NCBI GenBank assembly: GCA_003133325.1
Contig: PKXA01000083.1
Coordinates: 32,926-90,837, forward strand
Direction of reading: 5' to 3'
Source of the DNA: Acidimicrobiaceae bacterium
GTDB taxonomy: Bacteria > Actinomycetota > Acidimicrobiia > Acidimicrobiales > RAAP-2
DNA length: 57,912 nt
The notes beneath the pieces were generated by a model that made no database searches, was not told the origin of the DNA, and was given only the letters and a program-made list of their open reading frames with translations. The position numbers and the translations under genes were made by a program. Positions 3,749 through 29,702 of the stretch are shown one piece after another (within the stretch, counting starts at the first letter, position 1; the number at the start of each line of letters is the position of its first letter).

Positions 3749-3749
3749 C

Positions 3750-4208
3750 ATGGCGACCTCCACCGACAATCAGCTGCCGATCGAAGACCGACTGGCAATC
3801 GAGCAGCAGTGCACCCGGCTCAGCTACGCCTTCGCCTACCACATCGACCACGGTGAGTTCGAGGAGATGATCGCCCTCTTCACCGAGGACGGCGTCTTCG
3901 ACCGTGCCGGGCTGGTGCATCGTGGCCACGACGAGCTCCGTGAGGGGATGCGGGAGCGTCCCCCGATCACCACTCGGCACGTGATGACCAACTTCTACTT
4001 CGACACTGTCGGGCCCGATGTCGCCACCGGCACGGTGTACGTGATGACCTACCACGCCCATGGCTCCTACAGCGGCGAAGCAATGGTCTACGGCACGGAA
4101 CACGGACGCCTGATGGAACTGCGCGACGAGTACCGCCTGACCGTCGACGGCTGGCGCATTGCGAGTCGCATCGGGACGCCGATCTTCGTGCCGAAGGTGT
4201 GGCCGTAA
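3750..4208 (+). CDS. SnoaL-like / NTF2-superfamily protein
   Basis: This 152-residue protein has the SnoaL-like pattern: an N-terminal helix pair, HIDHGEFEEMIALFTEDGVF, and a C-terminal EYRLTVDGWRIASRIGTPIFV strand. The fold is used by polyketide cyclases, dehydratases and dioxygenase beta subunits. The ATG at 3750 is one base after the VOC stop, so the two are translationally linked. It ends the aromatic operon that begins at 1028 or earlier. It could be a dehydratase for a dihydrodiol or an accessory to the Rieske enzyme. No catalytic residue assignment is possible with confidence. Confidence 0.7.
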   Translation: MATSTDNQLPIEDRLAIEQQCTRLSYAFAYHIDHGEFEEMIALFTEDGVFDRAGLVHRGHDELREGMRERPPITTRHVMTNFYFDTVGPDVATGTVYVMTYHAHGSYSGEAMVYGTEHGRLMELRDEYRLTVDGWRIASRIGTPIFVPKVWP

Positions 4209-12208: not shown

Positions 12209-14238
12209 GGCTGCTCCTCGGATTCGTCTTGGTTGGTGTGCTCTCGCTCGTGCGGTACGTCGACAGAGGAGACTGTGATTACCGGGTCGTCGAGGCCGAC
12301 TGGCTGCCCTTGGCGGGCGAGTACGGCAGTGACCTTTCCATCGGCCGACGCGATCAGCGTGTGTTCCATCTTCATCGCCTCGATGATCGCTACCGTCTGC
12401 CCGGCAGCGACCACGTCGCCCTCGGCCACCAGCACCGCGGTGGCGATGCCGGGCATGGGGCTGCGGATCGTGCCGTGATCCGCAGCATCGGTGTCGGGGC
12501 GGAGGTGATCGGCGCTTGGATTGTGGTCACGGATCGGCCAGGCTGATCCAGCGATGCCGACCCAGGTGACCCCATTGTCACGGTGCACGGCCATCGGTGT
12601 GGTGACGCCTTCGAGCGTTACCCGGACCACCCCTTCGGCTCCGGCGACCACCGACGCCGTGCGAGGTTCCGCATCGTCGATCATGGCGTCTAGCGCCGAA
12701 CCACCGTGGAAGCGGAACGCCACGGAAACCGTGCCGCGGTTCGGTACGTCGAGGCGTTGGCGTACCCAGGATGGTCCGCCATGGCGCCATCCGACCGCCG
12801 CCTGCCAGGGATCATCTGCACCTCTGGCGTCGAGCAGGGGCAGCACAGCGGCGGCAACGGCTGCGGCATCGGGTACCTCGGCGGCCCCGAGGGCATCGCC
12901 GCGCCGTTCGACGAGCCCGGTGTCGAGGCGGCCGGCGATCACCTCTGCGTCGGCGAGCAGCCGCCGCAGGAATCCGACATTGGTGGTGACGCCGAGGAGA
13001 ACCATCGACGAAAGTGCAGCGTCGAGCCTCCGCAGTGCCTCGTTGCGGTCCGCGCCGTGGGCGATCACCTTGGCGAGCATCGGATCGTAGTCGGCACCGA
13101 CGACCGTACCGACGTCGACACCCGAATCAACCCGCACTCCTACGCCGGAAGGTTCGACCAGCCGGCGCAAGGTCCCGCCGGTCGGGAGGAAGCCGCGAGC
13201 CGGGTCTTCGGCGTAGACCCGTGCCTCAATGGCGTGACCCACCGACGAGAGGTCTGCCTGTGTGAATGGCAGTGGCTCGCCAGCGGCGATGCGTAGCTGC
13301 AGCTCGACGAGATCGATGCCGAAGATCAGTTCGGTGACCGGGTGCTCAACCTGTAAGCGGGTGTTCATCTCCATGAAGAAGAACTCACCGGGTCGGTCGT
13401 CCGACATGATGAACTCCACCGTCCCGGCGCCGGTGTACCCGCAGGCCCGGGCAGCATTGATCGCCTGTGTGCCCATCGCTGCTCGAATCTCGGGAGTGAC
13501 GAACGGCGATGGTGCCTCCTCCACGATCTTCTGGTGACGGCGCTGGAGGCTGCACTCTCGTTCGCCGAGGTGGACCACGTTGCCGTGCGTGTCGGCCACC
13601 ACCTGAATCTCGATGTGCCGCGGGTTGATGACGTAGCGTTCGACCAGGATCGTGTCATCGCCGAACGCGTTGCGAGCCTCGCGCCGTGCGGAGTCGATCT
13701 GCGGGCGCAGCTCGGCTTCGTTGCGCACCAGCCTCATGCCTTTGCCACCACCACCCGCCGACGGCTTGAGCAACACCGGTAGTCCCACCTCGAGCGCCGC
13801 CACCACCAATGCCTCATCGTCCAGACCGGCTTCGTCGCTCCCTGGCACCACGCGCACACCGGCGGCAGCCACCGAGCGCTTGGCGGCGATCTTGTCGCCC
13901 ATCGCCCTGATCGCTGCCACCGGCGGCCCCACGAACACGATTCCATGGGCCTCGCAGGCGCTGGCGAGTGCCGGGTTCTCCGACAAGAAACCGTACCCGG
14001 GGTGGATCGCGTCGGCCCCTGAGGAGAGCGCGGCCGCCACGACCCGGTCGACGTCCAGGTAGCTCTCGGTCGGGGCGGCAGGGCCGAGCCACATGGCGAC
14101 GTCGGCGTCGCGCACGTGTCGGGCGGCGACGTCGGCGTCGCTGTACACAGCCACCGAGCCGATGCCGAGCTCGCGCAGTGTGCGGATCACCCGCACGGCG
14201 ATCTCTCCGCGGTTGGCCACGAGGACCCTCGAGAACAT
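12205..14238 (-). CDS. Methylcrotonyl-CoA carboxylase alpha (biotin) subunit
   Basis: This roughly 677-residue subunit has a biotin carboxylase N-domain (VLVANRGEIAVRVIRT), an ATP-grasp domain (KPSAGGGGKGMRLV; EMNTRLQVEHPVTE), a biotin carboxylase C-domain and a C-terminal biotinyl domain. The biotin-lysine lies in EAMKMEHT near residue 623, followed by an acidic tail. It carboxylates the biotin used by the beta subunit. The length and operon match 3-methylcrotonyl-CoA carboxylase better than acetyl/propionyl-CoA carboxylase. The ATG at 14238 is taken by homology; a GTG four codons upstream (14250) has slightly better ribosome-site spacing. It overlaps the next gene by ATGA. Confidence 0.92.
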   Translation of the reverse strand: MFSRVLVANRGEIAVRVIRTLRELGIGSVAVYSDADVAARHVRDADVAMWLGPAAPTESYLDVDRVVAAALSSGADAIHPGYGFLSENPALASACEAHGIVFVGPPVAAIRAMGDKIAAKRSVAAAGVRVVPGSDEAGLDDEALVVAALEVGLPVLLKPSAGGGGKGMRLVRNEAELRPQIDSARREARNAFGDDTILVERYVINPRHIEIQVVADTHGNVVHLGERECSLQRRHQKIVEEAPSPFVTPEIRAAMGTQAINAARACGYTGAGTVEFIMSDDRPGEFFFMEMNTRLQVEHPVTELIFGIDLVELQLRIAAGEPLPFTQADLSSVGHAIEARVYAEDPARGFLPTGGTLRRLVEPSGVGVRVDSGVDVGTVVGADYDPMLAKVIAHGADRNEALRRLDAALSSMVLLGVTTNVGFLRRLLADAEVIAGRLDTGLVERRGDALGAAEVPDAAAVAAAVLPLLDARGADDPWQAAVGWRHGGPSWVRQRLDVPNRGTVSVAFRFHGGSALDAMIDDAEPRTASVVAGAEGVVRVTLEGVTTPMAVHRDNGVTWVGIAGSAWPIRDHNPSADHLRPDTDAADHGTIRSPMPGIATAVLVAEGDVVAAGQTVAIIEAMKMEHTLIASADGKVTAVLARQGQPVGLDDPVITVSSVDVPHEREHTNQDESEEQP

Positions 14239-14264
14239 TGGTCGCGACACGTCCGGCACCCCGA

Positions 14265-15890
14265 TCACATCCGGAATACGCCGTAGGCAACAGGATCGAG
14301 CGGGACACCCCCGACGATGCCCAGCGCGAGCCCGAGCACGGTGCGGGTGTCTCCAGGCTCGATGATGCCGTCGTCCCACAGGCGTGCGGTGGCGTAATAA
14401 GGATTGCCCTGCACCTCGTACTGGTCGCGGATCGGCGCCTTGAACGCTTCCTCCTCCTCGGCCGGCCACGAGCCGCCGTTCGCCTCGATCTGATCCCGTC
14501 GTACGGTCGCCAGCACGCTCGCTGCCTGCTCGCCGCCCATCACCGAAATCCGGGCACTCGGCCACGTCCACAGAAAACGCGGCGAGTAGGCCCGACCACA
14601 CATCGAGTAATTGCCGGCTCCGAACGACCCGCCGATCACCACGGTGAGTTTGGGCACTCGGGCGCAAGCCACGGCGGTCACCATTTTGGCGCCGTGTTTG
14701 GCGATGCCGCCCGCCTCATAGTCGCGCCCCACCATGAACCCGGTGATGTTCTGCAGGAAGAGCAGTGGGATCTGGCGCTGGTCGCACAGTTCGATGAAGT
14801 GCGCACCCTTCAGCGCCGACTCGGAGAACAGCACGCCGTTGTTGGCCACGATGCCCACCGGGTGCCCCCAGATGCGGCTGAACCCGGTGACCAATGTCGA
14901 ACCGTAGTCATGCTTGAACTCCGAGAACCGGCTGCCGTCGACGATGCGAGCGATCACCTCGCGCACGTCATATGGTGTCCGGCTGTCGGCCGGTACGATC
15001 CCGTGGAGTTCAACGGGATCGACAACCGGATCGACCGGTGTCGCCACCACCTGCGGCACAGTAGGCGGCAGCGTGGCCACGATGTCGCGCAGGATCCGCA
15101 ATGCGTGAGCGTCGTCGTCGGCGAGGTGGTCGACCACCCCGGAGATGTGTGCATGCACGTACCCCCCGCCCAGGTCCTCCGCGGACACGACCTCACCGGT
15201 GGCCGCCTTCACGAGCGGGGGACCACCGAGGAAGATCGTGCCCTGCTCGCGCACGATCACCGCCTCATCGCTCATCGCCGGCACATATGCTCCGCCCGCC
15301 GTGCATGATCCGAGTACTGCGGCGATTTGGGGGATGCGCAGCGACGACATCCGCGCCTGGTTGTAGAAGATCCGCCCGAAGTGCTCACGATCGGGAAACA
15401 CTTCGTCCTGCGCCGGCAGGAACGCGCCACCGGAATCGACGAGGTACACGCACGGCAGTCGGTTCTCCAGTGCCACCTCCTGGGCGCGCAAGTGCTTCTT
15501 CACGGTGATGGGGTAGTAGGTGCCACCCTTCACCGTGGCATCGTTCGCGACGATTACGCACAAGCGCCCCGACACCCGGCCGACGCCCGTGACGATCCCC
15601 GCGGCCGGTGCGTCACCGCCGTACATGCCATTCGCTGCGAGCGGCGACAACTCGAGGAACGGCGAACCCGGATCGAGCATCATCTCCACCCGATCCCGCG
15701 GCAGCAGCTTGCCACGGGAGATGTGGCGATCACGCGCCGGAGCCGGTCCGCCGAGAGCCGCGGTCGCCCGCGCCTTGCGCAACGCAGCGACGAGGCCATC
15801 CATCAACACGGCGTTGCGCCGGAACGCCTCCGACCTGGGATCACACGTGGTGCTCAGCATCGGCCAGCTCACCTCGGTCCCGTCAAGCAT
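14265..15890 (-). CDS. Methylcrotonyl-CoA carboxylase beta (carboxyltransferase) subunit
   Basis: This 541-residue carboxyltransferase has two crotonase-like domains. It carries the oxyanion-loop segments [17 protein letters not shown] and [20 protein letters not shown], characteristic of the methylcrotonyl-CoA enzyme. It transfers the carboxyl group from biotin to 3-methylcrotonyl-CoA, giving 3-methylglutaconyl-CoA in leucine breakdown. The start at 15890 follows an AAGGTG site. It is the first gene of the minus-strand leucine operon and is divergent from HMG-CoA lyase with a 72-base gap. No methylglutaconyl-CoA hydratase gene is in the cluster; the crotonase at 25451 is a candidate. Confidence 0.93.
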
Positions 15891-15962
15891 GACTGCACCT
15901 TAACCCTGACTAAGGTGTGGACGGCAACCGGGCGACACGACCAGGTGCGACGAGGGAGCACG

Positions 15963-16886
15963 ATGACCGACCACACAGCGACGGTGACCATTCGTGACGT
16001 GACCCCACGCGACGGGCTGCAGGCCGGCAATCCCGTGTCCAGCATCGCCCGTGCCGAACTGGCGATCACGCTCGCCGACGCCGGACTCGCTCACGTCGAG
16101 GCGGCCTCATTCGTGTCAGCCCGTGCGGTCCCTTCGATGGCCGGCGCCGACGAAGTCTTCGGACTGCTCCCTGACTGTGGCACGGCGTGGTGGGCCCTCG
16201 TCCCCAACGCCCGGGGGGCCGAGGCCGCACTGGCTGCCGGCGCCCGGTGCATCACCGTCACCATTTCGGCGTCGGCGGCCTACAGCGAGAAGAACGTCGG
16301 ACGGAGCACGGCCGACGCCATCGCCGGCCTTGCCGATATCGCTGCCATCGCCCACCCTGCCGGGGCCGCCCTCGACGTCGTGGTGTCGTGTGCATTCGGT
16401 TCCCCGTTCGACGATGTGAGCAGCCCGGCGCCAGTGATCGACGTTGTCGATGCCGCTCTTCGGGCGATGCCAGGCGCCCGCATCACACTCGCCGACACAA
16501 CCGGCACCGCGACCCCCCGTCGGATCGCCTCAGTGGTCGGCGAACTCGTCGGCGAGGCGCGCGCCGATCTCGGACTTCACCTGCACGACACCCGGGGCAC
16601 CGCACTTGCCAATGCACTCTGGGCGTTGGAGAACGGCATCCGACGCTTCGACACGGCCACCGGTGGCCTCGGAGGATCGCCGTTCGCCCCGGGAGCCGGC
16701 GGCAATCTCGCCACCGAGGACCTCGTCCTCGTGCTCGACGACCTCGGCGTCTCCACCGGCATCGACCTCGATGCCGTCCTTCGGGTAGCCAGCATGCTGC
16801 CGTCGTTGGTCGGGCATTCCGTCCCGGGCCGAACGGCGGCGGCAGGCCCGCTTCCCTTGTTCCACAGTTCGCGGACCCCGCCATGA
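15963..16886 (+). CDS. mvaB: Hydroxymethylglutaryl-CoA lyase
   Basis: This 307-residue TIM-barrel lyase splits HMG-CoA into acetoacetate and acetyl-CoA, the last step of leucine catabolism. The metal-site landmarks RDVTPRDGLQ and LHLHDTRGTALAN are present, as is the C-terminal GNLATEDLVLVLDDLG. In the signature loop, GGLGGSPFAPGAGGN, residue 239 is serine where the animal and Bacillus enzymes have the catalytic cysteine. Either this is a natural serine variant or activity is reduced. The ATG at 15963 is close to a GAGGGAGCACG leader. It overlaps the TetR gene by ATGA. Confidence 0.88.
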   Translation: MTDHTATVTIRDVTPRDGLQAGNPVSSIARAELAITLADAGLAHVEAASFVSARAVPSMAGADEVFGLLPDCGTAWWALVPNARGAEAALAAGARCITVTISASAAYSEKNVGRSTADAIAGLADIAAIAHPAGAALDVVVSCAFGSPFDDVSSPAPVIDVVDAALRAMPGARITLADTTGTATPRRIASVVGELVGEARADLGLHLHDTRGTALANALWALENGIRRFDTATGGLGGSPFAPGAGGNLATEDLVLVLDDLGVSTGIDLDAVLRVASMLPSLVGHSVPGRTAAAGPLPLFHSSRTPP

Positions 16887-17488
16887 AACCCACACGTACA
16901 CGCCGCCTCGAGATGCTCGCGATCGCCGCCGACCTCTTCGCCGCCTACGGGTTCCATAACGTGACGGTCGACGACATCGGCGGTGCGGCCGGTGTATCGG
17001 GGCCTGCGCTCTACCACCACTTCATCAGCAAGGAGGCACTGCTCGGTGAGATGTTGGTCTCTATCAGCCAGCACCTCCTCGACGGCGGGACGCTGCTGGC
17101 CGACGGCCAGCCCGTCGACCTGCTCGAACGCCTGATTCTGTTCCACTGTGAGTTCGCCGTCGACAACAAATCACTGATCGCGGTCCACTTCCGTGATCTG
17201 ATCCAAGCCACTGGCAGCGACCAACGCCGCGTCCGTCGGCTGCAAGCGAGTTACGCGGCGCTGTGGGTCGACGCTGTCCTCGCCCGGGGCCATGGCGTCG
17301 ACCCGCGTAGCGCCCGTGCCGCCGTACACGCCGGGTTCGGGTTGATCAACTCCACGCCGTTCAGCAGTACCCTGCCGCGCGCTCGGATGATCGACCTGCT
17401 GTCGGTGATGGCCGCAGGTGCACTCGGCTCTGCCGCGAACATTCAACTTGCCATCCCGTTGGGCGAGCGATCCACCACCCGAGTCTGA
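16883..17488 (+). CDS. TetR-family regulator of the leucine/isovalerate genes
   Basis: This 201-residue protein has an N-terminal helix-turn-helix (FAAYGFHNVTVDDIGGAAGVSGPALYHHFISKEALL, residues 19-54) and a ligand-binding helical domain with a TetR_C-like LINSTPFSSTLP segment. It is translationally coupled to HMG-CoA lyase (ATGA), which supports a role as local repressor responding to a CoA-thioester intermediate. It is one of two TetR genes in the window that could bind the paired operators at 18673 and 18802; no sequence evidence decides which. Confidence 0.88.
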   Translation: MKPTRTRRLEMLAIAADLFAAYGFHNVTVDDIGGAAGVSGPALYHHFISKEALLGEMLVSISQHLLDGGTLLADGQPVDLLERLILFHCEFAVDNKSLIAVHFRDLIQATGSDQRRVRRLQASYAALWVDAVLARGHGVDPRSARAAVHAGFGLINSTPFSSTLPRARMIDLLSVMAAGALGSAANIQLAIPLGERSTTRV

Positions 17489-17551: not shown

Positions 17552-18646
17552 TCATCTGGGGCGTGTCACGTCGGCCGGCACGGCCGGCCAGGGAGCGACG
17601 CCGAGCGAGGGCTCCGGGGTCTCGTAGTAGAGGCCGAGGGCCTCGAGCGTCGGGATGTCGTGGACGGAGAAGAGGATGGCCTCCTCGGTGGTGGAGCGGT
17701 TCACGAAGCTGTGTTCCGCCCAGTTGGGGATCACGAAGCAATCCCGGTCGGTCCACTCGAGATCGACGCCGTCGACGGTTGTCGTCCCGGCCCCGCGCAC
17801 GACGTGGTACATGCCGCTGGAGGTCTGGCGGTGGGGCCGGGTGCGCTCACCGGGGCGGAGCATCTGGATCCAGCACGAAATGGTGGGCATGGTGTGCCCA
17901 CCGGTAATGGGGTTCACGTACTCGAGGACGATCCCGTCGAACGGGCTGCCGTCCTCTGCTGCCATTCCGAGCAGAATCGGCTCGACGTCGCGCCACGGGT
18001 AACGGTGCGGGACGTGGAGTTCTTTGCGTCGCTCCCACGTCGGCCGCACGTCGCCGGAGCGGTTGGCCAGGGTGCTGCCAGAGCGCTCGTGCTCGGGCTG
18101 CCGGCGTTCGCCGAGTGTCTCGTAGAAGCCACCGTTCAGTGCGAGCACCAGACCGATGTCGAGTGCATCGAGCCATGTGACGTTGCCATCGGTCCCGTTG
18201 TGGTGGTCGTGCCACGTCCAACGCGGGGTGAGGACGAGGTCGTTGTCCTCCATCGGCAACCGCTCGCCGTCGACCACCGTTACGAGATCCGGGCTTCCGT
18301 CCACGACGAAGCGGATCGCTGCCATGGTGTGACGGTGGGACCAGGCGATCTCGCCGGGCTTGAGCATCTGCATGCCCATCACCATCGTGTGAGAGGTGCC
18401 GCGGTCGAGCCCGGGGTTCATGAAGGCGAGGTTCCGTCGGGCGGTGAAGCTCTCCGGCAGCACATCGCAGGCCTCGAGCAGCTTCGCGTTGACGTCCTTC
18501 CATCTCCACAGATGCGGAACTCCAGCTGGGCGCGGCCCACCGACCAAGCCCTCGAGGAGGCGATCGAATTCCCACTGCCCCTTCATCGCGGCCTCGGCCA
18601 GCTCCTGGTCGAAACGCGCAAGGCCCTTTGACGCCTCACCGCTCAT
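17552..18646 (-). CDS. Gentisate 1,2-dioxygenase
   Basis: This 364-residue bicupin has the N-terminal metal triad H104, H106 and H146 (SHRHTMAAIRFVVDG and WTWHDHHNG), matching ferrous gentisate dioxygenases. The second cupin has RPHRQTSSGMYHVVRG. The enzyme opens the ring of gentisate to maleylpyruvate. The ATG at 18646 is preferred over GTG 18652 because GGGGGG lies six bases upstream. No maleylpyruvate isomerase or fumarylpyruvate hydrolase adjoins it, although FAH-family genes at 1028 and 28803 could supply the latter. It is divergent from the seven-gene operon at 18842, with a matching operator on each side of the intergenic region. Confidence 0.88.
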   Translation of the reverse strand: MSGEASKGLARFDQELAEAAMKGQWEFDRLLEGLVGGPRPAGVPHLWRWKDVNAKLLEACDVLPESFTARRNLAFMNPGLDRGTSHTMVMGMQMLKPGEIAWSHRHTMAAIRFVVDGSPDLVTVVDGERLPMEDNDLVLTPRWTWHDHHNGTDGNVTWLDALDIGLVLALNGGFYETLGERRQPEHERSGSTLANRSGDVRPTWERRKELHVPHRYPWRDVEPILLGMAAEDGSPFDGIVLEYVNPITGGHTMPTISCWIQMLRPGERTRPHRQTSSGMYHVVRGAGTTTVDGVDLEWTDRDCFVIPNWAEHSFVNRSTTEEAILFSVHDIPTLEALGLYYETPEPSLGVAPWPAVPADVTRPR

Positions 18647-18672: not shown

Positions 18673-18690
18673 CGACCGGCTGTCCGGTCG
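18673..18690. promoter_or_regulatory. Perfect inverted-repeat operator near the gentisate dioxygenase gene
   Basis: CGACCGG (18673-18679), spacer ctgt, CCGGTCG (18684-18690): a perfect 7+7 palindrome typical of TetR-type operators. It lies 27 bases upstream of the gentisate dioxygenase ATG. The core CTGTCCGGTCG recurs at 18809-18819. Confidence 0.6.
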
Positions 18691-18801
18691 TTTACCCGAG
18701 CTAGCGTAACTGGAGGAAGCCAAGAGCGCAAGGCCGAGAACACGGTATCCACGGTGCCGGGTCGTCCTGGGTTGACGGCGGCTCGCCATGGGCGATAGAA
18801 C

Positions 18802-18819
18802 AGACCAACTGTCCGGTCG
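18802..18819. promoter_or_regulatory. Second, imperfect copy of the operator near the oxygenase operon
   Basis: AGACCAA-ctgt-CCGGTCG shares 11 contiguous bases (CTGTCCGGTCG) and the GACC half-site with the operator at 18673. It lies 23 bases upstream of the ATG at 18842. One copy next to each divergent gene suggests a common regulator for both transcripts. Confidence 0.55.
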
Positions 18820-18841
18820 GTATGGAAATGGAAGGGGATTC

Positions 18842-19627
18842 ATGCTCATCGCGAGCCCAGACGAGACCCGCACGGAGTCGGCGATCACCGAGGACGAGAT
18901 CGCCACCGGGCGGGACATCACCGCGGCCGAGCTGGGAGATACCCCGCGTGAGTACCAGGAGCTGGTCGTCGGGCTTCTCCGAGGTCACGCTGCCGGCGAA
19001 GCGTTCGTGCTCGACAAGGACATCTTCTCTCATTGGGCAGCAGACGCCCCACGCGCCGAGGACCGCTTCATGGTGCTCACCACCATCAAAGAGGAACTGG
19101 AGCACGCTCTTGAGGGCTGGCGCCTGCTGCGCCAGCTGAGCGATCTGATCGACTGGACGGACCTCTCGCCGGTGCCATCGGGGGGATCGCGTTACGAGGG
19201 CTTCCGCCATCCGACAACGGAATGGGCGGAGTTCGCTGCGCTCAGCGCCCTGACCGATCGTGTCGGTTGCTTCCAGCAGGAGGAGCAACTCGACTGCTCC
19301 TACGTGCCGTATGCGGAGGCGGTCCAGAAGGTCTACTTCCCGCTGGAGAAGGGCCATGCCGCCCGCGGCCGGTTCTGGCTCCGGGAGCTGTGCAAGACCG
19401 ACGACGGCCTCGCTCGGGCGCAGGCAGCTGTGGACGTTTGGTGGCCCCGGGCCCTTGACATGTTCGGACGGTCGGAAAGTTCACGCCAGCATCTGTACAT
19501 CCAGTACCGCTTGAAGAAGCGCACCAACGAGGAGCGTCGCAAGGCCTACATCGCGACCGTCCGGCCGGAACTCGAGTCGTTGGGGCTCACGGTGCCGGAC
19601 AACTCGGTCGGTCGCCAGTTCATTTGA
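18842..19627 (+). CDS. PaaA-like diiron monooxygenase (phenylacetyl-CoA epoxidase family)
   Basis: This 261-residue ferritin-like protein has two ExxH iron motifs, E85-x-x-H88 (KEELEHA) and E169-x-x-H172 (LEKGHAARG). Its C-terminal stretch DMFGRSESS...LKKRTNEERRKAY...PELESLGLTVPD follows the pattern of PaaA, the oxygenase subunit of phenylacetyl-CoA epoxidase. It is somewhat shorter than PaaA (about 310). The usual partner subunits (PaaB, C, D) and the PaaE reductase are not present. The ATG at 18842 is preceded by GAAGGGG. It heads a coupled operon that includes a PaaK-like ligase, so it probably oxygenates an aryl- or enoyl-CoA. The substrate is unknown. Confidence 0.75.
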   Translation: MLIASPDETRTESAITEDEIATGRDITAAELGDTPREYQELVVGLLRGHAAGEAFVLDKDIFSHWAADAPRAEDRFMVLTTIKEELEHALEGWRLLRQLSDLIDWTDLSPVPSGGSRYEGFRHPTTEWAEFAALSALTDRVGCFQQEEQLDCSYVPYAEAVQKVYFPLEKGHAARGRFWLRELCKTDDGLARAQAAVDVWWPRALDMFGRSESSRQHLYIQYRLKKRTNEERRKAYIATVRPELESLGLTVPDNSVGRQFI

Positions 19628-19637
19628 CCCTGGTCCT

Positions 19638-19943
19638 GTGATCCGCGGGTCTCTCTGCGCTTCGTGCGGTGCCGCCTGGTACCCCGAGGTGATCCGTTGC
19701 GCGCTCTGCGGTTCGTTCGAGGTTGCACCGAGCCCGATGTCGGGGGAGGGCATTGTGCGCTCGTTCACCTGGGTCCACTCGAACGCACGTCACCCTTCCC
19801 CCTGGGGCCTCGCGCACATCGAGACCGCCGAGGGTGTCTTCCTGGTGGGGCTGACAGAGGGACACCTCGACATCGGAGACCGGGCGGCAGTCCTCCGCTT
19901 CGAAGATGACCTCCCTGTATACACGAGACAGGTCGACGCGTGA
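19638..19943 (+). CDS. DUF35 zinc-ribbon/OB-fold protein
   Basis: This 101-residue protein has a rubredoxin-like zinc ribbon (C7, C10, C21, C24) and a C-terminal OB fold. Such proteins partner with SCP2-type thiolases; in steroid side-chain breakdown the DUF35 domain of ChsH2 binds and activates the aldolase Ltp2. Here the thiolase follows with a one-base overlap (TGATG). The GTG start at 19638 is ten bases after the oxygenase stop. The protein is small compared with stand-alone DUF35 proteins (130-150) because it starts directly at the ribbon. Confidence 0.85.
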   Translation: MIRGSLCASCGAAWYPEVIRCALCGSFEVAPSPMSGEGIVRSFTWVHSNARHPSPWGLAHIETAEGVFLVGLTEGHLDIGDRAAVLRFEDDLPVYTRQVDA

Positions 19944-21085
19944 TGTCGACGCCTCCTGCACTCGTGATCGCCGGCGTGGGGATCGAGCCCTTTGTCGGCA
20001 AGCACCCATGCGATGCTGATGAGATTGCACGTAGGGCGCTCCTTGCCGCGCTCGACGACGCTTCGGTCGACATCCCCGAGGTCGACCTCTGGGTCTTCGG
20101 GTCGCGGTTCGAACATCCTTCCATCGGCCAGCGGACGCTGTGCGCGCTCGGTGCGACCGGTGCGACGGTGCTCAATACGGAGAATGCCTGTGCCTCGGGG
20201 ACGGTCGGGTTGCAGATAGCGGCTGCCTATGTGGCGGCCGGGATGGCGCGCCGGGCGGTCGTGGTCGGCGTGGAGCGGGCGAGTGGCCTCGGCAGCAGCG
20301 TCCCGCTCCCGAGTTGGGACCGGCTCGGGCGCGCCGGGGTGACCCACCCTGCCAGGTACGCCCTCGATGCTGCCCGTTACCTCGTTGAGCACGGGTGCAC
20401 CGCAGAGCAGCTCGCGGCAGTCTCCGTGAAGAACCGGAGGCATGCCGCCTTGAACCCGGCAGCGAGGTTCCAGACTCCGGTGACGCTCCAGGAGGTCCTT
20501 GGGGCCCCGCCGGTCGCCGATCCGTTCACCCGGCTCCATTGCTGCGCGAATGCCGACGGCGCCGCCGCCCTCGTCGTCACCGCCGCGGACGACGTCCCAA
20601 CGGGTGCCGACGCCGTGCCGCTACTGGCGATCGCGACCGGGTCCGGGGCCAGAGCCGACCGTTGGCCCACGCAAACGCTCACCCGCCGGCTGGCCGAGCG
20701 GGCATTCGCCGATGCCGGAGTCGCGCCGTCCGATGTCGATGTCGCCGAGATCTACGATGCCTTCACCATTCTAGAGATTCTGAGCGCCGAGGGCCTTGGG
20801 CTCGCCGATTCGGGCACGGCCGGTCGACGGATCGCCGCGGGCGATTTCGATCTCGGGACACCGGGGTTGGTGTTGAACTCCGGCGGGGGGTTATTGGGTC
20901 GGGGGCACCCCCTCGGGGCAACCGGCGCCGCGCAGGTCGTCGAGATCGTGCAGCAGCTCCGCGGGGTCGCAGGCCCAAGGCAGATCCCGGGTGCTCAAGT
21001 CGGGCTGGTTCACACCCTCGGTGGCAACGTGCGGGAACTGGAGTCCAACGCCGGAGCCGTGATCATCCTGGGCCGAAGGGGGTGA
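19943..21085 (+). CDS. SCP2-type thiolase-fold protein, possible retro-aldolase partner of DUF35
   Basis: This 380-residue thiolase-fold protein has the nucleophile-type cysteine C83 (ENACASGTVG) and the GRGHPLGATG histidine motif. The second catalytic cysteine of true thiolases, normally near the C-terminus in a CxG motif, is replaced by LVHTLGGN. That fits the non-thiolase SCP2/Ltp group, some of which (Ltp2) perform retro-aldol cleavage of beta-hydroxyacyl-CoA with a DUF35 partner. It overlaps the DUF35 gene by one base. Retro-aldolase activity is inferred from neighbours, not shown by a motif. Confidence 0.8.
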   Translation: MSTPPALVIAGVGIEPFVGKHPCDADEIARRALLAALDDASVDIPEVDLWVFGSRFEHPSIGQRTLCALGATGATVLNTENACASGTVGLQIAAAYVAAGMARRAVVVGVERASGLGSSVPLPSWDRLGRAGVTHPARYALDAARYLVEHGCTAEQLAAVSVKNRRHAALNPAARFQTPVTLQEVLGAPPVADPFTRLHCCANADGAAALVVTAADDVPTGADAVPLLAIATGSGARADRWPTQTLTRRLAERAFADAGVAPSDVDVAEIYDAFTILEILSAEGLGLADSGTAGRRIAAGDFDLGTPGLVLNSGGGLLGRGHPLGATGAAQVVEIVQQLRGVAGPRQIPGAQVGLVHTLGGNVRELESNAGAVIILGRRG

Positions 21086-21087
21086 CC

Positions 21088-22392
21088 GTGACCCGCCTCG
21101 CCGACCGACGAGCCGCTCTCCTCTCGCTGCAGGCCGAGAAGCTGCGGCGCCTCCTCGCCCGGTGCGAGGCGAATCCCTTCTACCGACCCCGTCTCGAACA
21201 GGCGGGTCTGCGCTCGGACAACCTTCGCAGTGTCTGCGACCTCCGTCGGTTCGACCCGGTCGAAAAGCAGGACATCCTCGACGACCAAGGATCCCTGCCG
21301 CCGTTCGGCGCCCGTCTCGGCATCGGGGTGGACGAGATCCGGGAGGTCCACCTCACGTCGGGAACGACCGGACTCGGGCAAGAGGCCATGGCGCTCGATG
21401 CCGAGGACGTCGAGGCATCTGGAGCCACGTGGCTCCCGACATTCACCGCTGCCGGTCTGACGCCGGGCGATCTGTTTGCCACCTTCTACCCGGCCACGCT
21501 CTTCGCCTACGGTCGCTCGGTCCTGACCGGCGGGCGCGTTGCGGGTGTGCCGGTGGTGTCGATGGCGGGACTGGATCGTTCGGTTTCACTCGAGCTGCTG
21601 CGTCGGATTCAGCCCAAGGCACTCGGTGCCCGACCGGCGCTGTTCGGGCTTCTCGCCGAGGAACTCGCCACCGAGGGCACCACTCCCGCCGCGGCGTTCC
21701 CGGCGCTCCGGAGCATCATCACCTCCGGCCTGTCCGGGTCTCAGGCCATGGCGTTGCAGGAGACCTGGGGGGTTGTGCCGCACGAAGTGTACGGGATGTC
21801 CCAGGCGGCCGGGATCATCGCCGGGACAGGGTCGGAGGGTGCCGTGCCTGGTGGGGTGCCTGGAGTCATGCGCTGTATCGAGCGCCAGTTCATCGTCGAA
21901 GCCGTGCACCCCGAGACGCTTGATCCGGTGGAAGAAGGCGAGGCCGAGCTCCTACTCACCTGCCTCGACCGGGTGGCGTCACCCATCCTCCGCTTCAGGA
22001 CCCACGATCGGGTCGACGTCGTGCCCCCCGGGAGCTATGGCGACGACACGCCGTTGCTCGGCTTGCGGGTCGGATCCATCGGCCGATGGGACGACATGGT
22101 GAAGCTCCGTGGCAATAACGTCTGGCCCGGTCAGCTCGACGAGGCGCTCCTCGGCGACCCGGGGGTCCTCGACTATCGAGCCGAGGTGGTCGTCGACGCC
22201 CGCGGGGTCGAGCAGTTGCTGGTCGTCGTCAGACCCGACGACGCCACCGGGAGTGGGGTCGATGCGCATGCCGCCATCCTGTCCCGCAGGGTCAAGGCGC
22301 GCACCAACGTTCGACCGTCGATCAGCTTCGATCCTTCGCTGGCGGTGCCCGATCTCAAGCCCAAGCGACTCGTGGATCGGAGACGGGGATGA
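21088..22392 (+). CDS. Phenylacetate-CoA ligase-like acyl-CoA synthetase
   Basis: This 434-residue adenylate-forming enzyme has the PaaK architecture: an N-terminal helical region with NPFYRPRLEQAG, the ATP-binding P-loop LTSGTTG, a mid-protein EVYGMSQAAG, and a C-terminal LRVGSIGRWDDMVKLRGNNVWPGQLDE. It would convert an aromatic carboxylic acid to its CoA thioester at ATP cost. The GTG at 21088 has AAGGGGG at good spacing; GTG 21082, which overlaps the thiolase stop, is the alternative. Placement in an operon with a PaaA-like oxygenase suggests it supplies that enzyme's substrate. Confidence 0.88.
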   Translation: MTRLADRRAALLSLQAEKLRRLLARCEANPFYRPRLEQAGLRSDNLRSVCDLRRFDPVEKQDILDDQGSLPPFGARLGIGVDEIREVHLTSGTTGLGQEAMALDAEDVEASGATWLPTFTAAGLTPGDLFATFYPATLFAYGRSVLTGGRVAGVPVVSMAGLDRSVSLELLRRIQPKALGARPALFGLLAEELATEGTTPAAAFPALRSIITSGLSGSQAMALQETWGVVPHEVYGMSQAAGIIAGTGSEGAVPGGVPGVMRCIERQFIVEAVHPETLDPVEEGEAELLLTCLDRVASPILRFRTHDRVDVVPPGSYGDDTPLLGLRVGSIGRWDDMVKLRGNNVWPGQLDEALLGDPGVLDYRAEVVVDARGVEQLLVVVRPDDATGSGVDAHAAILSRRVKARTNVRPSISFDPSLAVPDLKPKRLVDRRRG

Positions 22393-22841
22393 CGGCCACG
22401 CCCGTTGTCGGAACTGTGCTCGGCGAGTTCGACGCGGTACTCGACCGGGCGAGGGTATGGCGTGTCGACTGGGCCGTCGGGCTCGACGTCCCGGAGTATC
22501 AGGATCCCGAAGTCGCCCGATCCGCAGGCCATCCCGACATCCCCGTGCCACCCGGTGCGCTGGTATTCTTCTCGTTCCTCCCTGACGACAGCTGGCTCGA
22601 GCGCGCCGGGATCTGTTTCGACCGTTCGCTCGCGGTGCGACGTCAGATCCGTAATCATCGCCAGCTGTACGTGGGTGATGTGGTTCACGGTCTGTCGCTC
22701 ATCGACACCGTCGAGGTTCGCTCCTCGACGAAGGCCACCATCGTCACCACCGTGATCGCCACCCGTTACTCGGTCGACGGCGAACTGGCAGTTGAGGAAT
22801 CGGTGACGTACTCGACCCGCCACCCCGAGGAGATGCGATGA
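22389..22841 (+). CDS. MaoC-like FAS1-type dehydratase N-terminal domain protein
   Basis: This 150-residue hot-dog protein is of the MaoC_dehydrat_N kind (LDVPEYQDPEVARSAGHPDIPVPPGALVFFSF). Such subunits lack the hydratase catalytic dyad and form heterodimers with a catalytic MaoC protein, as in ChsH1-ChsH2. The partner is the next gene, reached by an ATGA overlap. It overlaps the ligase stop in the same way. The likely role is substrate binding in an enoyl-CoA hydratase. Confidence 0.82.
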   Translation: MTATPVVGTVLGEFDAVLDRARVWRVDWAVGLDVPEYQDPEVARSAGHPDIPVPPGALVFFSFLPDDSWLERAGICFDRSLAVRRQIRNHRQLYVGDVVHGLSLIDTVEVRSSTKATIVTTVIATRYSVDGELAVEESVTYSTRHPEEMR

Positions 22842-23227
22842 GCGACGATTGCGAGTTCAGCACGGGTGCGCTGACGAAAGAGCGGATCGCGCAGTTCTCC
22901 GTAGCGATGCGGGATCCCAACCCGGTTCACCTCGACCCATCGTTCTGCGCGTCGATCGGATTGCCCGGGATCATCGCCCCGGGCGGTATCGGGGTGGTGG
23001 CCATAGCCCACGCCATCGGCCTTCGCTATGGTGCGCGGACGATCCGCGAGTTGGACATCTCTTTCCGGTCACCCGTGCATGTGGGGGAGTCCCTGCGGTG
23101 CCGGTTCGAGGTGATCGATGAGAAGGGCCCGACAATGACCCTTACCGCTCACGCGACAGGTGACGATGGTCGGACCTGCGCCGATGGGACCGTGACTGTC
23201 GAGCGAGAGATGGAGGAGCAGGCGTGA
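22838..23227 (+). CDS. MaoC-family enoyl-CoA hydratase, catalytic subunit
   Basis: This 129-residue hot-dog protein has the hydratase-2 motif RDPNPVHLD, with catalytic D26 and H31, followed by GLPGIIAPGG. It would add water to an enoyl-CoA, giving the 3-hydroxyacyl-CoA that the DUF35/thiolase pair could then cleave. It is coupled to the preceding non-catalytic MaoC gene (ATGA) and to the following ThDP gene (GTGA). Confidence 0.87.
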   Translation: MSDDCEFSTGALTKERIAQFSVAMRDPNPVHLDPSFCASIGLPGIIAPGGIGVVAIAHAIGLRYGARTIRELDISFRSPVHVGESLRCRFEVIDEKGPTMTLTAHATGDDGRTCADGTVTVEREMEEQA

Positions 23228-24906
23228 AGACCTACGAGGTGCTGGCGCATGCGTTCCGTGCCGAGGGCGTGGAGCACGCGTTCGGGATCATCGGCGATGC
23301 GACGTTGCAGTGGTACGCGGCCATGGCCGGCTCGGGAGTCCAGATGATCGACACTCGCCAGGAGACCAGCGCGGTCGCCATGGCTGAGGGCTACGCCCAG
23401 GTTCGACGCGACGTAGGCGTCGCATCGGTGACCTCGGGACCGGGCCTCGCTCAGGCGGCCCTGGCGCTCGCCAACGCTGCACGGGCTGGTGCCCCGACGG
23501 TGATCTTCGCCGGCGACAGCCCCACCACGGCCATCGAAGGGCCGCAACTCCTCGATCAGCGCCGTTTCGTCGAGGCCTGCGGTGCGGTATTCGTGGCGCT
23601 GCGGAGTCCAGCCACCGCGGCGGACGACGTCCGCCGCGCCTTCGCGATAGCGCGAGCCCGACGCACTGCGGTGGTGCTGAACGCACCGATGGACCTCCAG
23701 GCAGCGGAGTGCCCGGTGGATCCCGACGATCTACCGAAGGGACCTACGGTGGTCGACGTGCTGCCGTCGGCGCCGTCGGTTGCCGCCATCGAGGAACTGC
23801 TCCGCCTTGTCGAGCAGTCCCGTCGCCCGATTGTCCTCGCCGGCCGCGGCGCGATCTTTGCAGGTGCCCAGCGAGCCCTCCTCGGCTTGGCGGAGCGGAT
23901 CGGCGCGGCAACGACGACCACGTTGCTCGCCAAGGGATACCTCGACGACGACCCCTTCTGCCTCGGAGTGGTGGGCCCGCTGGCCAGTGCACCGGCCGAC
24001 GAGCTGTTTGCCGAGGCGGATCTTGTCCTCGCCTTCGGGGCCAGCCTTGACCGATTCACGATCGCCGGACGCGGGTCCACCCCGGTATTCCCCAACGCGA
24101 CCTTGGTTGCCATCAATCATGACGGCCCGAATGGCTCCCCCAACGCCTACGTCCACCACGCTGTGGTCGGCGATGTCGGATGCGTCGCCGAAGTCCTGAC
24201 CGCCCGGATCGAGGATGTCGGATTTCGGAACGAAGGCTTCCGCACCGAGGAGTACCAGGCTCGACTGCTCGGCGCTGCCCGCCCTGGCACAGAGTGCGCG
24301 CCGGGCTTCCTCCACCCGGCCCGAGTCATGGAGATCCTCGAAGGGCATCTCAGCCGTGACCGTCACCGGGTCGTCGTCGGTTCAGGTCACTTCTGGTCCT
24401 GGCCGATCATGTACCTGCGTCAGCCCGTCGACGGGCGCTTCCTGTTCGCCCACTACTTCGGTTCGATCGGTCTCGGCCTCCCCGTTGGCATCGGAGCCGC
24501 GATTGCGGACCCGTCTTCACGGGTGGTCGTGGTGGAAGGGGATGGGAGCATCATGGAGACCATCCAGGAACTGGACACGGCCAGCCGATACGGCATTGCG
24601 CTGACCGTTGTCGTGATGAACGACCAGCAACTCGGCGCCGAGCGGTTCAAGGGTGAGCTGCTCCGTCTCGATCCGAAACTGATGCATGTCCCGACACCCC
24701 GGTTCGATGACGTGGCCCGTGCCTTCGGCGGGGACGGAGCGTTGGTGACCGACGACCAGGGTATGGATGCTGCGCTGACCCGCGCTGCGGCGGCCGAGGG
24801 GCCGTTCGTGCTCGATGCTCGGATCGATCCGGAGATCGTGTGTGACATGTACCGAAAGCTCCACTATGGGATGGCGAACGTCGCCCCGCACCAGCGCCTG
24901 CCCTGA
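23224..24906 (+). CDS. Thiamine-diphosphate-dependent enzyme, acetolactate synthase-like
   Basis: This 560-residue protein has the three-domain layout of the POX/ALS family. The PYR domain has a cofactor-activating glutamate in DTRQETSAVAMAEGYA. A central TPP_M domain carries PIVLAGRGAIFAGAQ, and the C-terminal PP domain has GDGSIMETIQELD leading to MNDQQLG for ThDP-Mg binding. The fold is shared by acetolactate synthase, benzoylformate decarboxylase, benzaldehyde lyase and 2-hydroxyacyl-CoA lyase. It is the last operon gene, coupled by GTGA to a hydratase, and there is no acetolactate synthase small subunit, so a catabolic C-C lyase, ligase or decarboxylase is more likely than amino acid synthesis. 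Confidence 0.85.
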   Translation: MKTYEVLAHAFRAEGVEHAFGIIGDATLQWYAAMAGSGVQMIDTRQETSAVAMAEGYAQVRRDVGVASVTSGPGLAQAALALANAARAGAPTVIFAGDSPTTAIEGPQLLDQRRFVEACGAVFVALRSPATAADDVRRAFAIARARRTAVVLNAPMDLQAAECPVDPDDLPKGPTVVDVLPSAPSVAAIEELLRLVEQSRRPIVLAGRGAIFAGAQRALLGLAERIGAATTTTLLAKGYLDDDPFCLGVVGPLASAPADELFAEADLVLAFGASLDRFTIAGRGSTPVFPNATLVAINHDGPNGSPNAYVHHAVVGDVGCVAEVLTARIEDVGFRNEGFRTEEYQARLLGAARPGTECAPGFLHPARVMEILEGHLSRDRHRVVVGSGHFWSWPIMYLRQPVDGRFLFAHYFGSIGLGLPVGIGAAIADPSSRVVVVEGDGSIMETIQELDTASRYGIALTVVVMNDQQLGAERFKGELLRLDPKLMHVPTPRFDDVARAFGGDGALVTDDQGMDAALTRAAAAEGPFVLDARIDPEIVCDMYRKLHYGMANVAPHQRLP

Positions 24907-25450: not shown

Positions 25451-26305
25451 TCATTCGGCGATCCCTCTTCCGGAGTCCGACGTCACCTGACCGTCAGGTG
25501 CCAGGGTGGAGCTTGCCGAAGGGAAGTGCGGGGCTCGCTTCTCGCGCAGTGCGGCAGCGCCCTCGAGAACGTCGGGACCCATGAAGCAGAGCATCTCGTA
25601 GGCGGCTGACTGGTCGAAGATCGGTCCCGCGGCCTTGAGCCAGTTGTTGAGTGCGCGCTTCGTCCAACGGATCGCCGGCTGGGATCCAGTAGCCAGTTTC
25701 TCGGCCACCGCCATCGCCTCGTCGAACACCTTCTCCTTGGGCAGCGCCATGGTGACCATGCCGAGACGCTCGGCTTCAGCACCGGTCAGCATTTCGCCGG
25801 TCAGCAGGTAGTAACGGGCCTTCGCCATGCCCGCAAGGAGTGGCCAGATGATGGCGGAGTGATCACCCGCGGCGACCCCGAGCTTGACATGCCCGTCGCC
25901 GAGGCGGGCATCCTCCGCACAGATCGAGATGTCGGCGAGCAGGGCCACAGCCAGACCAGCCCCAATTGCGACGCCATTGATTGCCGAGATTACCGGTTTC
26001 TCACAATTGATCATGTTGTAGACGAGGTCACTCATTTCGGAGATCATGTGCGCCACGCGATCGAAATTCCCAGACAGGCGTTCGACCATGGCGAGGTCGC
26101 CTCCGGCAGAGAACGCCTTGCCGGCACCGGTCACTACGGCCACGTTGGTTTCGGGGTCCCGAGAAATGTCCGCCCAGACCCGGGAAAGTTCACTGTGCAT
26201 GTTCTCGTCGGCGGCATTGTACTTATCCGGGCGGTTCAAGGTGATCACCAGAATGCCGTGGTCGCGTCGCTCAAAATCCAACTGCTCGTAGCCTGCGTAC
26301 TCCAT
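25451..26305 (-). CDS. Enoyl-CoA hydratase/isomerase family protein
   Basis: This 284-residue crotonase-fold protein has the oxyanion-hole segments GAGKAFSAGGDL and NGVAIGAGLAVALLADISICAEDARLG. Its second acidic position lies in VAAGDHSAIIWPLLAG, the aspartate-containing form found in many actinobacterial crotonases in place of the classical glutamate. The ATG at 26305 is preceded by GGAGGA. It stands alone, convergent with the ThDP operon. It could hydrate methylglutaconyl-CoA for the leucine pathway, which otherwise lacks that enzyme here, or act in general beta-oxidation. Confidence 0.88.
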   Translation of the reverse strand: MEYAGYEQLDFERRDHGILVITLNRPDKYNAADENMHSELSRVWADISRDPETNVAVVTGAGKAFSAGGDLAMVERLSGNFDRVAHMISEMSDLVYNMINCEKPVISAINGVAIGAGLAVALLADISICAEDARLGDGHVKLGVAAGDHSAIIWPLLAGMAKARYYLLTGEMLTGAEAERLGMVTMALPKEKVFDEAMAVAEKLATGSQPAIRWTKRALNNWLKAAGPIFDQSAAYEMLCFMGPDVLEGAAALREKRAPHFPSASSTLAPDGQVTSDSGRGIAE

Positions 26306-28763: not shown

Positions 28764-28802
28764 GAGAGGAGTGTAGGACTGCCGGTGGCGTACGGTCTAT
28801 CC

Positions 28803-29702
28803 GTGCGACTGGTGAGCATGCTCGATGACGGGGTTCGGACCGGCCTGGTGGAGGGGGACGAGATCGTCGATCTCACCGACCCGGCCATCGGACTGCCCGG
28901 CGATATGGTGGCCTTGCTGACGTTGGGCCCCGATGCCGCCGATCCTCTCCGACGAGCGGCGTCCACCGGCGCTCGCCGGCTGCCGATGGCCTCGACCCTT
29001 CTGTTGGCACCGGTGCCGCGGCCGCCCTCCTTTTTGGCCATCGCCCGCAACTACGACGCCCATGTCCGTGAGCTCGGGCACGAGCGGCCGGAGTGTCAGA
29101 CCTGGTTCTCCAAGCAACCCACCTGTGTGATCGGGCCCGGTGCTGCCATCGAAGTCCCATCGGTGTCGACCGACGTCGACTACGAGGGCGAGGTCGGCAT
29201 GGTCATCGGCCGATGGTGTCGCCATGTGCCGGTGGAGCATGCGCTCGAGGTGGTGGCCGGGTACACCGTGGTCAATGACGTCAGCGTCCGAGATTGGCAG
29301 TGGCGATCCCCCACCATGATGATGGGCAAGGGTTTCGATACCCATGGTCCGACGGGTCCGTGGTTGGTGACCGCCGACGATCTCGGAGACCCTCAGGACC
29401 TCAGCGTGCGCACCTGGGTCAATGACGAACTCCGTCAGGACGGCGCCACCGGTGACATGATCTTCACCTGTGCACAGATGATCGAGCACTTGTCGACGGC
29501 ATTCACCCTCGAGCCGGGGATGATCATCTCCACCGGGACACCGGCGGGTGTGGGGGCGAAGGACGACCCTCCCCGTTGGCTCGCCGCCGGGGACACCGTT
29601 CGGATTGTGGTGGAGGGCATCGGCGAGCTGTCCAACCCGGTGGTCGACGAGCCAGGAGCGGACCGGGGCCGGCCCGATCGGGATCGGTCCGACCGGCCAT
29701 GA
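28803..29702 (+). CDS. Fumarylacetoacetate hydrolase family protein
   Basis: This 299-residue protein has the FAH metal site in DYEGEVGMVIG and VVNDVSVRDWQ, and a terminal FTLEPGMIISTGTPAGVG loop. It resembles 2-keto-4-pentenoate hydratase/5-oxopent-3-ene decarboxylase and fumarylpyruvate hydrolase types. Fumarylpyruvate hydrolysis would complete the gentisate route begun at 17552, but the gene is 10 kb away. The GTG at 28803 follows TACGGT by only a few bases, suggesting a leaderless transcript. The C-terminus is an Arg/Asp-rich tail. It overlaps the ArfB gene by ATGA. Confidence 0.87.
   Translation: MRLVSMLDDGVRTGLVEGDEIVDLTDPAIGLPGDMVALLTLGPDAADPLRRAASTGARRLPMASTLLLAPVPRPPSFLAIARNYDAHVRELGHERPECQTWFSKQPTCVIGPGAAIEVPSVSTDVDYEGEVGMVIGRWCRHVPVEHALEVVAGYTVVNDVSVRDWQWRSPTMMMGKGFDTHGPTGPWLVTADDLGDPQDLSVRTWVNDELRQDGATGDMIFTCAQMIEHLSTAFTLEPGMIISTGTPAGVGAKDDPPRWLAAGDTVRIVVEGIGELSNPVVDEPGADRGRPDRDRSDRP

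Follow-up and report, generated by a model that had tools for sequence, protein, structure and literature searches.

The window, a stretch of 57,912 nucleotides from an Acidimicrobiaceae bacterium (contig PKXA01000083.1, positions 32,926 to 90,837), carries an eight-gene cluster that is real, rare among the genomes searched and coherent. Seven + strand open reading frames (ORFs; 18842-24906) separated by gaps of +10, -1, -4, -4, -4 and -4 form an operon, and the overlaps at five of the six junctions agree with the overlap-coupled seven-gene operon described in an earlier note on this DNA. The eighth gene encodes a two-cupin dioxygenase and faces the operon (17552-18646, - strand). Searches of Pfam and NCBIfam confirmed the families named in that note: a PaaA-like diiron oxygenase, a DUF35 protein, a thiolase, a PaaK-like coenzyme A (CoA) ligase, two MaoC proteins and a thiamine diphosphate (ThDP)-dependent enzyme. 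Counterparts of all eight genes were found within 9 kb, in shuffled order, on a contig of a Frankiales metagenome-assembled genome (L012). Overall, the cluster appears to be a variant assembled from known enzyme families, with predicted enzymatic roles. The eight genes are tentatively read as one local regulon for breaking down a probably bicyclic aryl carboxylic acid aerobically, in a CoA-dependent manner and via PhdI-type ring cleavage, a reading that falls somewhat short of an even chance.

The source assembly was 4.05 Mb in 133 contigs, 96.6% complete and 3.1% contaminated. All NCBIfam rows listed for the operon proteins fell under their cut-offs, and the proteins are therefore treated as family members and not as annotated enzymes. 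The gene combination was not found described in the literature searched, although this search was limited and is not proof of absence in print.

Putative operator sites and regulator

Two operator-like 18-mers lie on the + strand in the space separating the dioxygenase gene from the operon, ACCGGCTGTCCGGTCGTT (18675-18692) and ACCAACTGTCCGGTCGGT (18804-18821). Their consensus was derived from these two sites themselves, which were its only matches in a genome-wide pattern search of the assembly at ≤1 mismatch; the reversed control pattern gave 2 matches. At 3 mismatches the window held 5 consensus matches vs a shuffle mean of 1.45. In L012, operator-like sites with 3 mismatches each were found ahead of the dioxygenase gene and in the stretch that separates the TetR gene from the ligase gene. 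The total there was 5 matches, one of them intragenic and one site contributing a match on each strand, compared to a shuffle mean of 0.45, and none of 200 shuffles attained 5 matches. The claim that the dioxygenase gene and the operon share the same operator was thus upheld by two sites of one consensus, and co-regulation through these putative sites is likely. The TetR-family regulator encoded at 16895-17488 (+; TetR_N 57.9 bits, cut-off 24) is a candidate repressor of the local regulon; the L012 cluster also includes a TetR gene, 26% identical to that of the window. The ORF finder placed the start of the oxygenase gene at 18788, which is probably too far upstream because the second operator-like site would then lie inside the gene, while comparison with the relatives favours the ATG at 18842.

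Enzymes of the cluster

The dioxygenase facing the operon is PhdI-like (1-hydroxy-2-naphthoate dioxygenase-like). Its best NCBIfam match was 5-aminosalicylate dioxygenase (294 bits, cut-off 650) followed by gentisate dioxygenase TIGR02272 (258.4 bits, cut-off 442.1), and 'gentisate dioxygenase' would be a superfamily-level name only. A tree of 11 rows was built from the cupins of the window, L012, L011, Massilia sp. WG5 and Pseudarthrobacter phenanthrenivorans Sphe3, the phdI-type genes of genomes G435 and G402, and four gentisate-side enzymes. The window cupin grouped with phdI of pht/phd clusters (support 100/100), apart from the gentisate-side rows and on the opposite side of the tree from GtdA; branching within the PhdI clade was not resolved. 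Identity was 63% over the full length to the G435 phdI-type gene and 34-39% to the gentisate-side enzymes, two of which adjoin fumarylacetoacetate hydrolase and maleylacetoacetate isomerase genes. The earlier note was therefore correct in that a cupin dioxygenase faces the operon, while its identity as a gentisate dioxygenase was rejected on the TIGR02272 score and the clade.

The reference was named phdI from its gene order and gene lengths and from PhdJ-like neighbours in L056 and L058. Genes of 804, 1242, 1086 and 1005 bases in the G435 neighbourhood match, apart from the one base by which length exceeds end minus start, the lengths of phtB, phtAd, phdI and phdJ in the table for Mycobacterium sp. 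TJFP1, as given in the accessible part of PMC12114333. The closest plasmid cupins were those of Massilia sp. WG5 (53%) and P. phenanthrenivorans Sphe3 (48%). Each adjoins a dihydrodipicolinate-synthase-family gene, as in phdI-phdJ, and both had the same two NCBIfam families at the top, in the same rank, as the window cupin. No PhdJ aldolase gene adjoining the window dioxygenase was found, and a search of the window genome for a PhdJ orthologue gave none (best match 26%, 19 bits). Thus the window cupin resembles PhdI of the phenanthrene pathway in clade and identity, but lacks the PhdJ partner and is accompanied by a CoA ligase, a PaaA-like oxygenase and a ThDP enzyme.

The first gene of the operon (18842-19627, +) encodes a single-subunit PaaA-like diiron oxygenase of 261 aa. 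It scored 78.3 bits with PaaA_PaaC (PF05138, cut-off 28.5) and 88.2 bits with the PaaA equivalog TIGR02156, under the cut-off of 280. The iron ligands of PaaA are Glu42, Glu72, His75, Asp126, Glu155 and His158, and Lys68 belongs to a lysine bridge, according to the available text of PMC4498308. A phmmer alignment to 3pvr (chain numbering offset by two) showed that all six ligands are kept in the window protein (P0001) as E71, E103, H106, D157, E187 and H190. All six were invariant across the window, L011 and L012 proteins, while Lys68 is replaced by Thr99 in the window oxygenase.

In the 96.6% complete assembly, the window oxygenase was the sole PF05138 match found in the search for PaaC, and the search for PaaB with PF06243 gave no match. 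The presence of paaABCDE in another part of the genome, which the earlier note had named as part of a refuting condition, was thus rejected. Only PaaA was found of the PaaA and PaaC pair which serves as marker of the phenylacetate pathway in the accessible part of a 2026 survey (PMC13186573). The search for a PaaE-like reductase produced five partial matches on other contigs, all under the cut-off, and the control likewise gave matches under the cut-off in 9 of 14 genomes. The earlier note had regarded an oxygenase without PaaB/C/D as unusual. The lack of detectable PaaB and PaaC stood, but the arrangement is less unusual than claimed: BoxB functions without a structural subunit, as stated in the portion of PMC4498308 that was available, and PaaA-like genes lie beside MaoC and ligase genes in L012, L041 and L046. 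A tblastn search of L012 and L041 with the window PaaA found no second PaaA match, a search that a divergent PaaC could escape and that did not include L046. The window oxygenase is therefore of the PaaA family with all its iron ligands, and differs from PaaABCE in the missing partners, the Thr99 substitution and the score under the equivalog cut-off. Plasmid relatives of PaaA showed 28-33% identity for the best 20 of 213 records and 28-30% for the best 15 of 197 records; two of their neighbourhoods were read and both were unlike the window operon. Phage records gave two distant matches.

The PaaK-like CoA ligase (21082-22392, +) had PaaK TIGR02155 as best NCBIfam match (121 bits, cut-off 646), while Pfam AMP-binding scored 27.8, below 29.9. 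Its relatives in the PDB were PaaK1 (120.7 bits) and 2-hydroxyisobutyryl-CoA synthetase (88.9 bits). An ordinary phenylacetate or gentisate pathway would account for PaaK and PaaA as the best NCBIfam matches of ligase and oxygenase and for TIGR02272 as second match of the cupin. It is nevertheless very improbable, as the scores are far below the equivalog cut-offs (121/646, 88/280 and 258/442), PaaB and PaaC were not found and the cupin is in the PhdI clade. An FAH-family gene lies approximately 4 kb past the operon end (28764-29702), yet the scan of flanking genes did not reveal a maleylpyruvate isomerase.

The last gene of the operon (23224-24906, +) encodes a ThDP-dependent enzyme which, by its Pfam, NCBIfam and PDB matches, is divergent from both acetolactate synthase and 2-hydroxyacyl-CoA lyase. 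Three TPP_enzyme Pfam domains were present. The best NCBIfam match was acetolactate synthase (234 bits, cut-off 538) and the 2-hydroxyacyl-CoA lyase equivalog NF058623 gave 163.1 bits, under its cut-off of 600; the corresponding PDB relatives scored 154 and 126 bits. Ligase and ThDP enzyme could instead form a 2-hydroxyacyl-CoA ligase/lyase pair that releases formyl-CoA and a carbonyl compound, as suggested by the PDB relatives 2-hydroxyisobutyryl-CoA synthetase and 2-hydroxyacyl-CoA lyase. This route is rather improbable since PaaK1 and acetolactate synthase score above those relatives and the lyase family score is 163 vs 600.

Matches to the ThDP protein at E ≤1e-90 were found in 18 of 396 genomes of the phylum, own genome included. 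Of two large neighbourhoods of relatives that were read, one (L091) had DUF35 and thiolase genes (by tblastn) and a MaoC pair (by eye) within about 8 kb, and the other (L090) had amidohydrolase-like neighbours by eye. The two plasmid contexts and the genome contexts of ThDP relatives that were read indicated no clear substrate. The window protein and its L012 counterpart share 48-49% identity, and in L012 the ThDP gene overlaps that of the dioxygenase by 4 bases. Separately, a stretch of 84 aa at L060:17046-17291 (contig C70 of the genome, about 2.1 kb left of the window) is 52% identical to ThDP residues 392-471. A simple gene finder called no gene there beyond its first bases, and the stretch is possibly a remnant of a second ThDP copy.

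The two MaoC proteins were assigned by Pfam and motif reading. MaoC1 (22389-22841, +) is of the FAS1_DH type (44.8 bits) and lacks D-x-N-P-x-H, the motif of R-hydratases. MaoC2 (22838-23227, +; MaoC_dehydratas 42.8 bits) keeps it as D-P-N-P-V-H. The pair of a catalytic and a non-catalytic MaoC described in the earlier note was thus recovered, and one MaoC with the motif beside one without it resembles the ChsH1-ChsH2 pairing.

The DUF35 protein (19638-19943, +) has a ChsH2-type zinc ribbon and OB fold. OB_ChsH2_C (PF01796) scored 30.0 bits against a cut-off of 27.1, the zinc ribbon scored 20.4, below 23.2, and the cysteine pattern is C-x2-C-x10-C-x2-C. The adjacent thiolase-like protein (19943-21085, +; Thiolase_C_1 118.5 bits) is a candidate retro-aldolase. 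In steroid aldolases the Tyr of YDHF or YDCY acts as catalytic base, and SCP2 thiolases carry HDCF and a nucleophilic Cys, as described in the accessible text of PMC12329534. The window protein has YDAF, with Ala at the position of the HDCF Cys, consistent with the earlier description of an SCP2-type thiolase without the second Cys. The Tyr base of the Y-D-x-x motif of Ltp2/Sal steroid-type retro-aldolases is therefore present, but the following residue is Ala in the window and Gly in L012 and not the His or Cys of the Ltp2/Sal type. Moreover, the nucleophilic N-terminal Cys, which is Gly in Sal, is kept within NACASG, as is GHP, in both the window and L012. Of the 14 thiolase rows in the alignment, just those of the window (YDAF) and L012 (YDGF) had Tyr; HD was found in 11 (6 with HDAF) and Phe in one divergent row. 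The combination of Tyr, Cys and GHP points to a retro-aldolase that arose from a BbsB-like thiolase, although the protein may also be a thiolase.

Membership of the steroid side-chain family was rejected on the motif mismatch. The MaoC pair, the DUF35 protein and the thiolase-fold protein with its Tyr base resemble ChsH1-ChsH2-Ltp2 and Shy-Sal, a likeness to Ltp2 that was drawn from published motifs and not from direct sequence comparison. They differ in the Ala after YD, the N-terminal Cys and the free-standing DUF35. The best PDB match was benzoylsuccinyl-CoA thiolase BbsAB (192.8 bits), in which BbsB also lacks the HDCF Cys but has HDAF, and the BbsB equivalog NF053628 gave 200.8 bits, far under its cut-off of 750. 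Overall, the earlier proposal of a CoA-dependent aromatic route with an aldolase-like DUF35-thiolase pair was supported.

IpfE of ibuprofen degradation is a DUF35 protein. A route of the Ipf type would activate an aryl-acetate or aryl-propionate with CoA, oxygenate the ring at the side-chain carbon, remove the side chain by DUF35-thiolase retro-aldol cleavage and pass an ortho-hydroxy aryl acid to the cupin. Every gene would have one use and one ligase would suffice, and ligase, ring oxygenation and an ipfDE thiolase-type retro-aldolase follow the same logic in the available part of PMC9195938; the likeness is by description and not by IpfD sequence. However, Ipf relies on a dioxygenase system in place of PaaA, that part of the source describes neither a MaoC nor a ThDP step, and the MaoC pair would need to open an epoxide, so that such a route seems quite unlikely.

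Conservation and related clusters

PaaA matches occurred in 8 of 99 relatives besides the own genome (23-30% identity) and in none of 60 genomes of the same genus and family. A three-row PaaA profile matched 45 of 296 genomes of the class (own included) at E ≤1e-20, with scores above 400 bits only in the own genome and G274. In a draw of 396 genomes of the phylum only the own genome passed 1e-28, and in the order of G274 only G274 itself (1 of 58). The scan of the genome collection, which detects close relatives only, yielded two loci.

The first, L012, has the order dioxygenase, ThDP, PaaA, a 252-aa MaoC-like protein, DUF35, thiolase, MaoC, MaoC, TetR (- strand) and ligase, followed by a 4Fe-4S ferredoxin, a ferredoxin-reductase-type protein and a flavin reductase. 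Identities to the window were 65% for the dioxygenase, 62% for PaaA, 58% for the thiolase, 52% for the ligase, 49% for the ThDP enzyme, 46% for MaoC1 and 41% for MaoC2. The DUF35 counterpart was weak (23%, no Pfam match) and was identified by position and cysteines. As the order differs, linkage of the genes has survived rearrangement. The earlier note had proposed a check of gene-order conservation: content recurs but order does not. It had named as grounds for abandoning its interpretation a gene order conserved in no relative, or a ligase acting only on phenylacetate together with a paaABCDE set elsewhere; since the content recurs in L012 and no such set was found, neither applies in full, and the interpretation as a whole is partly supported.

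In the second locus, L011, the genes for PaaA (76%) and the dioxygenase (63%) are linked, and its contig stops just past PaaA. Mirrored matches suggest that this contig is C601 of G274 (L035). Another G274 contig (L036) carries PaaA (64%), a 252-aa MaoC-like protein, thiolase, DUF35, MaoC and MaoC. A second, divergent PaaA-family gene adjoins and could be a partner of the first; a MaoC pair, ECH and ligase follow. On a plasmid of Variovorax sp. WDL1 (L046), PaaA, SDR and DUF35 genes run divergently from a group of thiolase, MaoC, MaoC and ligase genes, at 23-45% identity to the window. PaaA, DUF35, thiolase, MaoC pair and ligase lie there in about 6 kb as a likeness to the window operon, but the dioxygenase/ThDP pair is absent, the thiolase motif is HDAS and PaaA is 28% identical. 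The module of PaaA, MaoC, thiolase/DUF35 and ligase thus crosses phyla at low identity, with the window and L012 as the version with dioxygenase and ThDP genes.

These loci bear on a phenylacetate-style hybrid, in which the ligase would be followed by PaaA epoxidation, hydrolytic ring opening by MaoC (as by the PaaZ hydratase domain) and C-C cleavage by DUF35-thiolase, leaving the PhdI-like and ThDP enzymes for a second ring or side branch. PaaA, MaoC pair and PaaK-like ligase recur without dioxygenase and ThDP genes in L036, L041 and L046, and DUF35 and thiolase are also present in L046. On the other hand, the operon has no PaaG-type isomerase or aldehyde dehydrogenase, and the thiolase motif is YDAF instead of HDCF. 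The nearby ECH gene (25451-26305) lies on the strand opposite to the operon and, among the best 25 families, scores above cut-off for a generic hydratase subfamily only (401 vs 292). The hybrid is considered unlikely.

Other observations were made on the related loci. L041:4112-11311 (G239, same order) encodes MaoC, MaoC, ECH, ligase and PaaA, then transporter-like genes, with the first MaoC and ECH identified by eye, and is probably another PaaA-type aryl-CoA module. The metagenome-assembled genome G274 (L035-L040) has seven PaaA-family matches at E ≤1e-20 across five contigs, near PaaK-like ligases in L036/L037 and L038 and near P450 and thiolase in L039. Between the PhdI-like and PaaA genes of G274 (L035:839-2513) are proteins of 135 and 262 aa without Pfam match and a small cupin; the 262-aa protein looks heme-oxygenase-fold diiron-like by eye. 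The 252-aa proteins (L012:7149-7907 and L036:5925-6683), directly after PaaA, have no Pfam match and an N-terminus resembling MaoC1, and a counterpart is absent from the window operon.

Among the flanking genes, a Rieske alpha/beta pair and FAH-family, LigXa-like Rieske, VOC and SnoaL proteins are encoded at 376-885 and 1910-4208 of the window and at L060:18362-19612. The Rieske beta protein scored 160.4 bits, against a cut-off of 145, with a 3-phenylpropionate dioxygenase beta family, and the L012 contig encodes a SnoaL protein with 54-56% identity to the one here. A leucine-degradation-like block at 11066-16886 encodes an acyl-CoA dehydrogenase, biotin carboxylase and carboxyltransferase subunits and an HMGL-like lyase, the latter by family scan and the others read from sequence.

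Proposed pathway and its significance

In the proposed aryl-acid route, the PaaK-like ligase would form an aryl-CoA and the single-subunit PaaA-like enzyme would oxygenate the ring beside the thioester. Release of CoA, for which no dedicated thioesterase was seen in the operon, would give an ortho-hydroxy aryl carboxylate, whose ring the PhdI-like cupin would open to an arylidene-pyruvate, for example 2'-carboxybenzalpyruvate. The ThDP enzyme would decarboxylate this 2-oxo acid, a step given to it because no PhdJ aldolase was found. An unlinked aldehyde dehydrogenase would oxidise the product for CoA activation in a second use of the ligase, the MaoC pair would hydrate the resulting cinnamoyl-type thioester, and the DUF35/YDAF protein would split it by retro-aldol cleavage into an aryl aldehyde and acetyl-CoA. 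The reactions, their order, the substrate and the regulator are all inferred from the sequence; 2-naphthoate is a working guess for the substrate. The more specific proposal is decidedly doubtful: that for naphthoate-type acids the single-subunit PaaA makes the PhdI substrate, and a ThDP decarboxylase and a MaoC/DUF35 Tyr-type aldolase replace PhdJ, with acetyl-CoA and not pyruvate as product.

The aryl-acid route is preferred because it uses the PhdI finding, and confidence in it is modest because unlinked enzymes and double use of the ligase are needed. Several points weigh against it. The operon lacks genes for the aldehyde dehydrogenase, thioesterase and reductase that the route calls for, and the best 25 of 54 NCBIfam rows of the ThDP protein were all below cut-off, so that no function is assignable to it. 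The PaaA step would not be needed for 2-naphthoate since NmoA, a flavin-type 2-naphthoate monooxygenase, is already known (PMC5481743, as far as its accessible text goes); L012 itself also encodes an HsaA/HsaB-family pair (under cut-offs). The PhdI clade is not proof of substrate, as a gentisate dioxygenase was proposed to cleave 1-hydroxy-2-naphthoate in Sagittula MA-2, in the available part of PMC11705938. The YDAF protein retains the thiolase GHP and N-terminal Cys, and Tyr in the motif is not unique to the window and L012, because a fifteenth, distant thiolase-like protein in L091 carries YDSF, without the N-terminal Cys. The full gene set was found in one further record only, L012, in other order. 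The PaaA/MaoC/thiolase core occurs in L036 and L046 without dioxygenase and ThDP genes and with a His-type thiolase, and these two genes may thus be add-ons. Of ten plasmid neighbourhoods of related thiolases, only L046 had a PaaA gene (L053 was unannotated), so the PaaA-thiolase association is far from general. Finally, no operator-like site was found in L035.

If the proposed route is true, CoA-thioester epoxidation and cupin cleavage of free hydroxy acids would be joined in one regulon, and the single-subunit PaaA would gain a concrete substrate class. The DUF35-thiolase protein would then seem intermediate between a thiolase, with its Cys and GHP, and a retro-aldolase, with its Tyr base. 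The cupin also serves as a warning that PhdI-type enzymes can sit behind 'gentisate dioxygenase' labels.

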